Source: an uncultured Spirochaetaceae bacterium
GTDB taxonomy: Bacteria; Spirochaetota; Spirochaetia; Sphaerochaetales; Sphaerochaetaceae
Assembly: GCA_944388955.1 (NCBI GenBank)
Contig: CALXKJ010000005.1
Coordinates: forward strand, 62,001-126,000
Reading direction: 5' to 3'
DNA length: 64,000 bases
Position numbers and translations under genes: made by a program. Positions 94-41,975 of this stretch are shown here, in pieces. Position 1 is the stretch's first letter. Every line of letters begins with the position of its first letter. Under the pieces are notes generated by a model that worked only from the letters and a program-made list of their open reading frames with translations, was not told the origin of the DNA and made no database searches.

Positions 94-144
94 TGTAAAT
101 ATAGTGAAGTGCAGAATATTTACAGTGTGTAAAAATTTTACACA
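94..144. promoter_or_regulatory. Two inverted repeats, likely activator (enhancer) sites
   Basis: TGTAAATAT (94-102) is inverted as ATATTTACA (116-124), and TGTGTAAAA (126-134) is inverted as TTTTACACA (136-144) around one central A. Both arms are perfect 9-mers sharing a TGT..AAA core. They lie about 80-125 nt upstream of the predicted start from the sigma54 promoter at 195-210, the usual distance for a bacterial enhancer-binding protein. The activator itself is not in the window. Inference from position and symmetry. Confidence 0.55.
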
Positions 145-194
145 GTAAGATATCTTTTGTTGCTATTTGGTGCATTTTATCAATTTTAAAAAGT

Positions 195-210
195 TGGCAC
201 GGTACTTGCA
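195..210 (+). promoter_or_regulatory. Sigma54 (-24/-12) promoter 1
   Basis: TTGGCACG-N4-TTGCA matches the RpoN consensus YTGGCACG-N4-TTGCW at every defined position. The GG (196-197) and GC (208-209) are separated by exactly 10 nt. It precedes a short non-coding stretch that ends in a terminator at 264-292. Confidence 0.8.
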
Positions 211-221
211 TTATGATTGCT

Positions 222-296
222 GAGCAAACAGTTTTTTCAACAAACCTCCTTTTTAGTGTATTCAAAGACGCCTTCTCCGGCGTCTTTGTACTTTTC
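222..296 (+). ncRNA. Predicted sigma54-dependent small RNA 1 with anti-SD motif
   Basis: Predicted transcript of about 75 nt, starting 12-14 nt after the -12 GC and ending in the hairpin at 264-287. The 5' part reads GAGCAAACAG, a T-run, then CAACAAACCTCCTTT. ACCTCCTTT equals the anti-Shine-Dalgarno tail of bacterial 16S rRNA. There is no ORF with a ribosome-binding site. A homologous second unit follows at about 355-450. Expression and exact ends are inferred. Confidence 0.6.
264..292 (+). terminator. Rho-independent terminator of small RNA 1
   Basis: AAAGACGCC (264-272) pairs perfectly with GGCGTCTTT (279-287) around a 6-nt loop and is followed by a T-rich tail. Confidence 0.85.
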
Positions 297-326
297 TTAC
301 AGAATTCATCGTCAAAAACATCTGAT

Positions 327-342
327 TGGCACATATAATGCA
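327..342 (+). promoter_or_regulatory. Sigma54 (-24/-12) promoter 2
   Basis: TTGGCAC followed by ATATAATGCA keeps the invariant GG (328-329), 10-nt spacing and GC (340-341), with two departures from the full consensus. It precedes a second unit that resembles small RNA 1, which raises confidence in both. Confidence 0.65.
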
Positions 343-354
343 ATAAAAATGTTA

Positions 355-450
355 CAGAGCAACAGTTTTTCATACCTCCTTTGCAACGTGTGAAAAAACT
401 TGCGCCAGGTAGCTTCTCTCCCACCCCATTCTGCTGCCTGGCGTTTTCTT
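355..450 (+). ncRNA. Predicted sigma54-dependent small RNA 2 with anti-SD motif
   Basis: Second copy of the arrangement at 195-296. The 5' region (GAGCAACAG, T-run, CATACCTCCTTT, 357-382) aligns with unit 1, and the exact ACCTCCTTT is kept while the downstream part differs. It ends in a terminator at 403-450. Conservation of the 5' segment and anti-SD motif with divergence elsewhere is typical of sibling small RNAs. The 5' end is estimated from the -12 element. Confidence 0.58.
403..450 (+). terminator. Rho-independent terminator of small RNA 2
   Basis: CGCCAGG (403-409) pairs with CCTGGCG (437-443), extended by inner AGC/GCT pairs, and is followed by TTTTCTTTT. Confidence 0.8.
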
Positions 451-467
451 TTATCTTTTCTTCCTGT

Positions 468-502
468 TTGACGGCTTTTTATGTAACAGCTATGCTCTTC
501 GT
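468..502 (+). promoter_or_regulatory. rlmE promoter, predicted leaderless start
   Basis: TTGACG (468-473), 17-nt spacer, TATGCT (491-496), then 6 nt to the ATG. Transcription would start at the start codon, and there is no Shine-Dalgarno sequence. Confidence 0.65.
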
Positions 503-1114
503 ATGGCTGTATCAAGAAGAGACAAGGCAGATTTCTATACGCAGAAGGCACACAAGGAAGGCTACCCCGCGAGATCGGTTTATAAACTTGAGGAAATCAA
601 CAGCACGCATAAGCTGATAAAACCCGGAGACAGCGTGCTTGATGTAGGTGCGGCTCCTGGCTCATGGACACTATACACGCACAGAGTGCTTCTCAAGGGA
701 AAAGGGAGGATTGTCTCTGTAGACCTTAATCCCATCTCTCTTGACCCAATACCACCGACAGTGACAGCTCTTGTCGGCGATGCGTTCTCGAAGGAGATAC
801 GGACACGTCTTGTCGAGGAAGGGCCATACGACGCAATCATCTCAGATGCCGCCCCGATGACAACAGGAAACAGGATTGTAGACACTTCACGCTCGGAGTA
901 TCTTGCAGAACAAGTTGTAATGCTTGCGGAAGAACAGCTCAAGGCACACGGCAACATGGTGATAAAGATATTCCAGGGCGGAGGAGAGCAGGAAGTCCTC
1001 AAGCGGATGAGAGAGATATTCCAGAAGGCGAAGGCATTCAAGCCGAAAGCTTCCCGTGATGACTCTTTTGAAGTTTTCCTTATCGGCCTTGATAAAAAAG
1101 AAGGGACCAACTGA
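503..1114 (+). CDS. rlmE: 23S rRNA (uridine-2'-O)-methyltransferase RlmE (FtsJ/RrmJ)
   Basis: 203 aa, the usual length for RlmE, which 2'-O-methylates U2552 in the A-loop of 23S rRNA at a late stage of 50S assembly. The SAM site LDVGAAPGSW lies at residues 46-55. The K-D-K-E catalytic tetrad can be assigned: K28 (VYKLEE), Asp in IISDAAP, Lys in VIKIFQGG, Glu in FEVFLIG. The ATG at 503 follows a sigma70-type promoter by only 6 nt, so a leaderless mRNA is predicted. It converges on htpG; the heat-shock link of both genes in other bacteria is established, but no heat-shock element was found here. Confidence 0.95.
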   Translation: MAVSRRDKADFYTQKAHKEGYPARSVYKLEEINSTHKLIKPGDSVLDVGAAPGSWTLYTHRVLLKGKGRIVSVDLNPISLDPIPPTVTALVGDAFSKEIRTRLVEEGPYDAIISDAAPMTTGNRIVDTSRSEYLAEQVVMLAEEQLKAHGNMVIKIFQGGGEQEVLKRMREIFQKAKAFKPKASRDDSFEVFLIGLDKKEGTN

Positions 1115-41310: not shown

Positions 41311-41395
41311 GGAGAGATGTCCGAGTGGTCGATGGTGGCAGTCTTGAAAACTGCTGAGGCGAAAGTCTCCGGGGGTTCGAATCCCTCTCTCTCCG
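41311..41395 (+). tRNA. tRNA-Ser (anticodon UGA)
   Basis: Acceptor GGAGAGA/TCTCTCC, long variable arm, anticodon loop CTTGAAA. 3' CCA is not encoded. Reads UCA/UCG. Confidence 0.95.
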
Positions 41396-41403
41396 ATAAA
41401 ACT

Positions 41404-41493
41404 GGAGAGGTGCGAGAGAGGCCGAATCGGGCTCCCTGCTAAGGAGTTGACCTGCTAAACCCGGGTCCGGGGGTTCGAATCCCCCCTTCTCCG
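41404..41493 (+). tRNA. tRNA-Ser (anticodon GCU)
   Basis: Long variable arm; stem GCTCC/GGAGT around loop CTGCTAA; acceptor GGAGAGG with one G-U pair. Reads AGC/AGU. Followed by a terminator at 41500-41531. Confidence 0.95.
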
Positions 41494-41499
41494 TAAAGA

Positions 41500-41531
41500 C
41501 CATAGCTTTCTGAAGATGGCTATGGTTTTTT
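41500..41531 (+). terminator. Terminator after the first two tRNA-Ser genes
   Basis: CCATAGC (41500-41506) pairs with GCTATGG (41519-41525), followed by TTTTTT. Confidence 0.88.
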
Positions 41532-41600
41532 CTTGCAATGGAAAAGAATAGCACTTGCCTCACCTTTTCTATTGTGATAGATTGTTACGCGTTGTTAATT

Positions 41601-41674
41601 GAGACTATAGCTCAGCTGGATAGAGCATCAGTTTGCGGAACTGAGGGTCGGAGGTTCGAATCCTCTTAGTCTCG
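41601..41674 (+). tRNA. tRNA-Arg (anticodon GCG)
   Basis: All stems pair: acceptor GAGACTA/TAGTCTC, D stem GCTC/GAGC, anticodon stem TCAGT/ACTGA, T stem GGAGG/CCTCT. The loop TTGCGGA gives anticodon GCG, which reads CGC directly. Most bacteria use ACG edited to ICG for CGU/CGC/CGA, so an encoded G34 is uncommon. Confidence 0.93.
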
Positions 41675-41681
41675 TCCTTTT

Positions 41682-41769
41682 GGAGAGATGTCCGAGTGGT
41701 CGAAGGAGCCGGACTCGAAATCCGGTGTAGTGCTCTGCATTACCGAGGGTTCGAATCCCTCTCTCTCCG
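41682..41769 (+). tRNA. tRNA-Ser (anticodon CGA)
   Basis: Long variable arm, stem CCGGA/TCCGG with loop CTCGAAA. Reads UCG. Acceptor identical to the UGA isoacceptor. Confidence 0.94.
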
Positions 41770-41783
41770 TCCTAGGCAAATCT

Positions 41784-41869
41784 GGAGAGGTGTCCGAGTG
41801 GTCGAAGGTGCACGATTGGAAGTCGTGTATGGTCGAAAGCCATCGGGGGTTCGAATCCCCCCCTCTCCG
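41784..41869 (+). tRNA. tRNA-Ser (anticodon GGA)
   Basis: Stem CACGA/TCGTG around loop TTGGAAG, long variable arm. Reads UCC/UCU. With UGA, GCU and CGA this completes a serine set able to read all six codons. Confidence 0.94.
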
Positions 41870-41870
41870 T

Positions 41871-41975
41871 TCAGCAGCAGATACCTGGCTATGAACGCCG
41901 CCCAACCCCGTCAGGGCAGGAATGCAGCAGCGGTAAGCGGAATGTTTATGAGACCAGGAGCATTTGCTGCTGTTT
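41871..41975 (+). ncRNA. ffs: Signal recognition particle RNA (small 4.5S type)
   Basis: Domain IV is clear: GTCAGG, then GCA-GGAA-TGC with a GNRA-type tetraloop, then AGCAGC, the asymmetric-loop sequences that bind Ffh. The ends pair (CAGCAGCA at 41872 with TGCTGCTG ending at 41972), giving a hairpin of about 102 nt that runs straight into a T-run. No Alu domain. It starts 2 nt after tRNA-Ser(GGA), so it is probably co-transcribed and processed. Confidence 0.92.

Follow-up and report, generated by a model that had tools for sequence, protein, structure and literature searches.

Our analysis identified a family-wide and previously undescribed pair of predicted, stress-type small RNAs, encoded in tandem upstream of rlmE in an uncultured Spirochaetaceae bacterium of the gut, that probably block the translation of genes encoding secreted and nutrient-binding proteins. 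In the most likely reading, the two RNAs act in trans and without Hfq to repress translation initiation, with a bias toward secreted proteins. The full proposed mechanism, in which two paralogous anti-Shine-Dalgarno (anti-SD) RNAs are switched by sigma54, was assigned a probability of roughly two in three. Positions given for the window refer to the whole stretch of 64,000 nucleotides that was analysed.

Organization of the locus

Window positions 195-452 comprise a pair of independent units, and each consists of a -24/-12 promoter, a conserved 5' block, an anti-SD string and a terminator (Table 1). This is the arrangement that an earlier note on this DNA had described, and it could be read directly from the sequence. 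The first unit runs from TGGCACGGTACTTGCA through GAGCAAACAGTTTTTTCAACAAACCTCCTTTTTAG to a terminator end near 298, and the second from TGGCACATATAATGCA through ACAGAGCAACAGTTTTTCATACCTCCTTTGCAACGTGTGAAAAAACT to a terminator end near 452. In both units the 5' block has the form (AC)AGAGCAACAGUUUUU(U)CA, with GAGCAA blocks beginning near 223 and 358, and the anti-SD string is ACCUCCUUU. The 5' block of RNA 1 keeps a near-constant spacing from the -12 element across loci. Fold z scores were -2.94 for RNA 1 and -4.68 for RNA 2, and RNA 2 matched the covariance model at C5:62354-62450 of the genome with an E value of 1.2e-17, a figure to be read with RNA 2 being one of the training sequences of that model. 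Of the sizes of about 75 and 95 nt proposed in the earlier note, the first was reproduced by our prediction and the second lies near the 99 nt predicted here. The note's equation of the anti-SD with the 16S rRNA tail was also borne out, as the 16S 3' end GGATCACCTCCTTT was seen in three genomes of the same genus (G001, G011 and G013), while a search of the window's own MAG for GGATCACCTCCTTT gave no match.

Table 1. Features of the tandem RNA locus, in window coordinates.
Feature	Position	Strand	Basis or remark
Activator-site-like dyad GTGTGTAAAAATTTTACAC	125..143	.	Palindrome; centre ~87 nt before predicted RNA 1 start
Putative sigma54 -24/-12 promoter, RNA 1 (TGGCACGGTACTTGCA)	195..210	+	Sequence; pattern search; promoter statistics
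Predicted small RNA 1 (type A), ~75 nt	221..298	+	Predicted start 221-222
Anti-SD ACCTCCTTT, RNA 1	244..252	+	Unpaired stretch, behind TTTTTTCAACAA
Rho-independent terminator, RNA 1	263..298	+	Hairpin and T-run; fold
Putative sigma54 -24/-12 promoter, RNA 2 (TGGCACATATAATGCA)	327..342	+	Sequence; pattern search; promoter statistics
Predicted small RNA 2 (type B), ~99 nt	354..452	+	Predicted start 354
5' hairpin, RNA 2, anti-SD displayed in loop	364..400	+	Predicted fold
Anti-SD ACCTCCTTT, RNA 2	374..382	+	Sequence; alignment; fold
Terminator, RNA 2	402..452	+	Hairpin and T-run; stem covariation
Conserved C-rich terminator loop CTCTCCCACCCC, RNA 2	416..427	+	Core columns conserved while stem varies
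rlmE (23S rRNA 2'-O-methyltransferase), conserved downstream neighbour	503..1114	+	Protein match; synteny

The rlmE gene is regarded as separate from the RNA units. Directly before its ATG (window 468-503) stands a sigma70-type promoter, TTGACG-N17-TATGCT, with a similar layout in relatives; as read from the sequence, the transcription start would seem to coincide with the ATG, which would give a leaderless or near-leaderless mRNA. Beyond rlmE lies htpG on the opposite strand, and a minus-strand gene of the rhomboid family is located upstream of the units. A protein-coding reading of the region was rejected, as the long minus-strand ORF that crosses it is apparently an artefactual N-terminal extension of that rhomboid gene. 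Elsewhere in the window (41311-41972), four tRNA genes and a small SRP RNA are clustered.

Conservation across the family

A strict pattern combining the promoter, ACAGTTTTT and ACCTCCT matched 20 of 36 same-genus genomes; none of 24 from other families matched, and the reversed-pattern control gave zero matches. The covariance search that the earlier note had suggested was carried out with a model built from +1 onward, with the promoter left out, and recovered the unit in 78 of the 92 sampled genomes of the window's family in comparison to 3 of 303 others in the class sample. Both the promoters, which are at consensus, and ACCTCCTTT are strongly conserved in relatives, so the proposal withstood this comparison. 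Named relatives include Candidatus Ornithospirochaeta, Bullifex and Sphaerochaeta, and among public genomes the units precede rlmE in Bullifex porci, Sphaerochaeta halotolerans and a Pleomorphochaeta MAG. As cultured relatives, S. halotolerans and B. porci make the system directly testable.

All three matching genomes outside the family belong to one genus of family f17. Their units stand directly upstream of rlmE and carry a sigma54 promoter, GTTTTTCATACCTCCTTT and the C-rich terminator loop; the anti-SD is kept while other parts and the flanks diverge, and TGTG-N9-CACA dyads precede the unit in two of the three. A phylum-wide sample yielded no additional family carrying the RNA. The position directly upstream of rlmE is shared by most genomes examined, the units lying well away from it at five loci (L036, L039, L043, L086 and L094), and some copies have a variant anti-SD (ACTCCTCCTTT, GCCTCC or ATCTCC). 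One Sphaerochaeta-type genome (G278, L194) has four tandem type B copies upstream of rlmE, each with its own sigma54 promoter.

Two paralogue types and their structure

Alignment and folding place the anti-SD of type A in an open, unpaired stretch, and the predicted fold of type B displays it in the loop of a 5' hairpin; the loops hold (A)CCUCCUUU and CUCUCCC(C)ACCCC. The latter, in the type B terminator, is conserved while the stem sequence changes, with a stem covariation score of 0.624 in comparison to 0.150 after shuffling (alignment A4). Two-sided changes were counted in 9 of 10 stem pairs on A3 and in 10 of 10 on A4, the A3 figure being the more independent since A3 is a MAFFT alignment and A4 was fitted to the covariance model. 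Pairing in the type B 5' hairpin (helix 1) reaches 81%, two-sided changes being nearly absent, and its description as a covarying helix was set aside as unsupported beyond pairing frequency. In the isolated type B RNA the U-run is predicted to pair with a downstream A-run; in type A the U-run plus CA is equally conserved with no A-run partner. Two small genomes (L003 and L016) have a unit 2 that lost the anti-SD and retained the promoter, the 5' block and the C-rich loop, which suggests that this loop has a use of its own.

Predicted sigma54 control

The -24/-12 elements (GG-N10-GC) precede 28 of the 30 model-found loci under a strict pattern and all 30 under a loose one, in comparison to a random-position background of 1.4% and 8.8%, respectively; many of the loci had served to train the model or had come up in the promoter-pattern search, and the independent part is the remainder. 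In keeping with the sigma54 dependence claimed in the earlier note, rpoN is present in the genome (C4:107729, a full sigma54 model match), as are sigma54 activators by profile matches. A same-genus genome without rpoN (G031) is also without a covariance-model match, although this joint absence in one fragmented genome is only suggestive. No match to the Hfq profile PF17209 was found in 60 genomes of the class, while control genomes were positive.

Four clear activator-type proteins (PF00158) are encoded in the genome, among them two response regulators of the NtrC type with a histidine kinase next to each (C17 and C7), and one larger protein (C15). The fourth (G000:C3:144688-145185; L285) is short, has GAFSGA instead of GAFTGA and no visible HTH or DNA-binding domain, and adjoins an rsmE-like gene.

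The dyad that had been noted at the activator position recurs in relatives where an activator would bind, as most type A units there have a 17-bp dyad near TGTGAAAAATTTTCACA some 62-73 nt before the -24 element; a stricter dyad pattern was found in 4 of the 30 loci. The dyads of the RNA promoters are of the TGTGA-N7-TCACA type. They were not taken as CRP-type operators, whose spacing is N6 and not N7.

Sigma54 sites across the genome were sought with one relaxed pattern and a subset of the matches was examined, most of which were set aside because they fall inside ORFs. Besides those of the two RNAs, convincing intergenic promoters were found in C4, before two hsp20 genes, and in C17, before a gene for an RpoS-like sigma factor. 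The latter (G000:C17, L113:2143-3018, minus strand) has its sigma54 promoter near L113:3077, with an upstream dyad TGGGTCA-TTG-TGACCCA, and is close to the C17 histidine kinase and NtrC-type activator. The two tandem hsp20 genes (G000:C4, L117:4955-5898, minus strand) have a consensus sigma54 promoter at L117:5970 with an imperfect version of the same dyad. Since the dyad type of the sigma factor and hsp20 promoters differs from that of the RNA promoters, we infer by elimination that the C7 regulator is a candidate activator of the RNAs.

Predicted targets

Read as its reverse complement, the conserved 5' segment gives AAAGGAGGU followed by AUGAAAAA, which corresponds to an SD and the opening of Met-Lys-Lys genes; the part complementary to AUGAAAAA is the U-run plus CA next to the anti-SD. 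Pairing was modelled on about 0.9 Mb of the window's genome (G000) and 0.4 Mb each of two other genomes, with gene starts called by a script and partly chosen by SD; in the window's genome this gave 807 genes, of which 149 have an N-terminal signal-peptide-like segment according to a crude classifier script. Predicted pairing of the type A RNA favoured signal-peptide genes by -1.95 kcal/mol, and 190 shuffles keeping CCUCCUUU averaged 0.08 +/- 0.36, none being as extreme. On the same gene set the true 16S tail had the opposite bias (+1.13), and the type B RNA together with homologues from Sphaerochaeta, Bullifex and f17 gave values from -1.8 to -2.1. The bias recurred in two other genera with their own genes and RNAs, and it survived inclusion of the full small RNA fold (p 1.6e-6 to 1e-3). 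The U-run plus CA alone explains most of it, indicating that the predicted bias rests on complementarity to AUGAAAAA beside the SD.

Enrichment was approximately two-fold, and thus the predictions span a wide range of targets, of which many will prove incorrect when taken singly. Many of the top predicted targets are solute-binding proteins; as an illustration and not a test, 8 of 10 targets hand-picked from three genomes match Pfam solute-binding families. The top-scoring target of one run was an antisense artefact of the rhomboid-side ORF and was removed. Translational repression through SD pairing, put forward in the earlier note for many mRNAs, is an interpretation that the target modelling supports and would narrow toward signal-peptide genes. 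Points that go beyond that note are the type B C-rich loop, the complementarity of the U-run to AUGAAAAA, conservation reaching well outside the genus, and the sigma54 promoters before the hsp20 and RpoS-like genes.

Proposed mechanism and alternatives

Two paralogous trans-acting small RNAs, each promoted and terminated on its own, would be induced under stress through RpoN when a phosphorylated NtrC-type activator occupies the 17-bp dyad near TGTGAAAAATTTTCACA. Each RNA would offer ACCUCCUU, unpaired in type A or in a hairpin loop in type B, directly after the U-run plus CA, and these together would match the SD and AUGAAAAA of Met-Lys-Lys mRNAs. Pairing would begin at the SD and extend across the start codon, preventing 30S binding without Hfq. 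As signal-peptide genes start Met-Lys-Lys, repression would fall preferentially on solute-binding proteins, lipoproteins and other exported proteins, and the C-rich terminator loop of type B may serve as a second seed or a protein site. What was observed comprises the sequence, its conservation and covariation, the presence of rpoN and activators, the lack of a recognisable Hfq and the in silico pairing bias; expression of the RNAs, the activator, the inducing signal, repression and the regulon are inferred. Against this mechanism, the type B U-run is paired in the isolated RNA, and helix 1 is almost without compensatory change. In its most far-reaching form, a sigma54-inducible and Hfq-free RNA pair silencing secreted-protein mRNAs as a class, with the C-rich loop as a further seed, the proposal is tentative, with somewhat better than one chance in three of being right. 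If true, one stress signal would lower the synthesis of nutrient-binding and envelope proteins together.

Alternatively, the RNAs may compete as free anti-SD molecules and damp translation of SD-led mRNAs in general, secreted proteins not being favoured and the U-run serving only the hairpin or stability. Such general mimicry would suit the fact that no element has lasted better across families than the anti-SD, that SDs precede most genes of the genomes sampled and that the type B U-run has its A-run partner, but the partnerless type A U-run plus CA is just as conserved, and the signal-peptide bias exceeds all shuffles and is reversed for the real 16S tail. This alternative is considered unlikely. 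Less probable by a wide margin is a decoy role, where the RNAs would titrate a protein acting on the 16S tail (a nuclease, methylase or maturation factor) with no mRNA pairing. The identity with the 16S tail extends over nine bases and the fixed synteny with an rRNA methylase gene hints at ribosome biology; however, the identity ends there, copies with a variant anti-SD exist, and rlmE has its own sigma70-like promoter at its ATG. That promoter-like sequence also argues against the units being a leader of rlmE, with sigma54 transcripts reading through under some conditions and the hairpins acting as attenuators. The common position directly upstream of rlmE is in its favour, but strong terminators close both units and at the five loci named above the units are distant from the gene, making this the most improbable of the three.

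Comparison with known systems

No spirochaete system of this kind was found in the open-access papers searched, in agreement with the earlier note. The closest functional parallels are the cuckoo RNAs, anti-SD RNAs of alphaproteobacteria that include alpha-r14/NfeR1 of Sinorhizobium (PMC10746234) and CcsR1-4 of Rhodobacter (PMC10253847). NfeR1 represses ntrB via CCUCCUCCC motifs independently of Hfq, and its candidate targets are mostly ABC transport mRNAs, of which two periplasmic-component mRNAs were confirmed (PMC10746234), while CcsR1-4 are tandem stress RNAs processed from one transcript (PMC10253847). The spirochaete RNAs resemble these stress-linked RNAs in having anti-SD motifs in unpaired regions. 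Cuckoo RNAs differ in having CCUCCUCCC, a motif absent from the hairpin loops of the spirochaete RNAs, as well as in alphaproteobacterial hosts, promoters and neighbours, and no homology between the two groups was detected. Rfam gave no match at gathering score, the Qrr and cuckoo/alpha-r14/CcsR models included; a BjrC1505 hit was discarded, as it reached 27.8 of 50 bits, below the cut-off, and covers untranscribed promoter DNA.

The Qrr RNAs of Vibrio act with Hfq, a partner not found here, belong to another phylum and lack the anti-SD design of the spirochaete RNAs. What the two share is the use of several small RNAs under sigma54 and an NtrC-family activator (PMC10162802, PMC8043402), the activator being a predicted one in the spirochaete case. 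CJnc230 of Campylobacter jejuni is likewise an anti-SD, sigma54-linked RNA, being RpoN-dependent with a single-stranded CCUU, but it is a single copy processed from the flgE mRNA that controls flagellar genes (PMC11187230), whereas the spirochaete RNAs are tandem units with their own promoters. Within the phylum, the Borrelia Rrp2-RpoN-RpoS cascade is a sigma54 network with an NtrC-type activator (PMC11109971), which is paralleled by the sigma54 promoter before the RpoS-like gene in our genome; a small RNA arm of this kind was not found described in the open-access papers searched.

As the combination of features, motif, phylum and locus differ from these systems and Rfam scores fall below cut-off, the spirochaete RNAs can be interpreted as a new family working like anti-SD RNAs rather than as members of a known one. 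They would constitute a family-wide regulatory RNA, in bacteria with no recognisable Hfq, within a phylum where conserved trans-acting RNAs are scarcely known. This suggests that anti-SD RNAs came into use convergently here and in alphaproteobacteria, and that by a simple logic a whole gene class, that of exported proteins, may be regulated through its shared start-region sequence.
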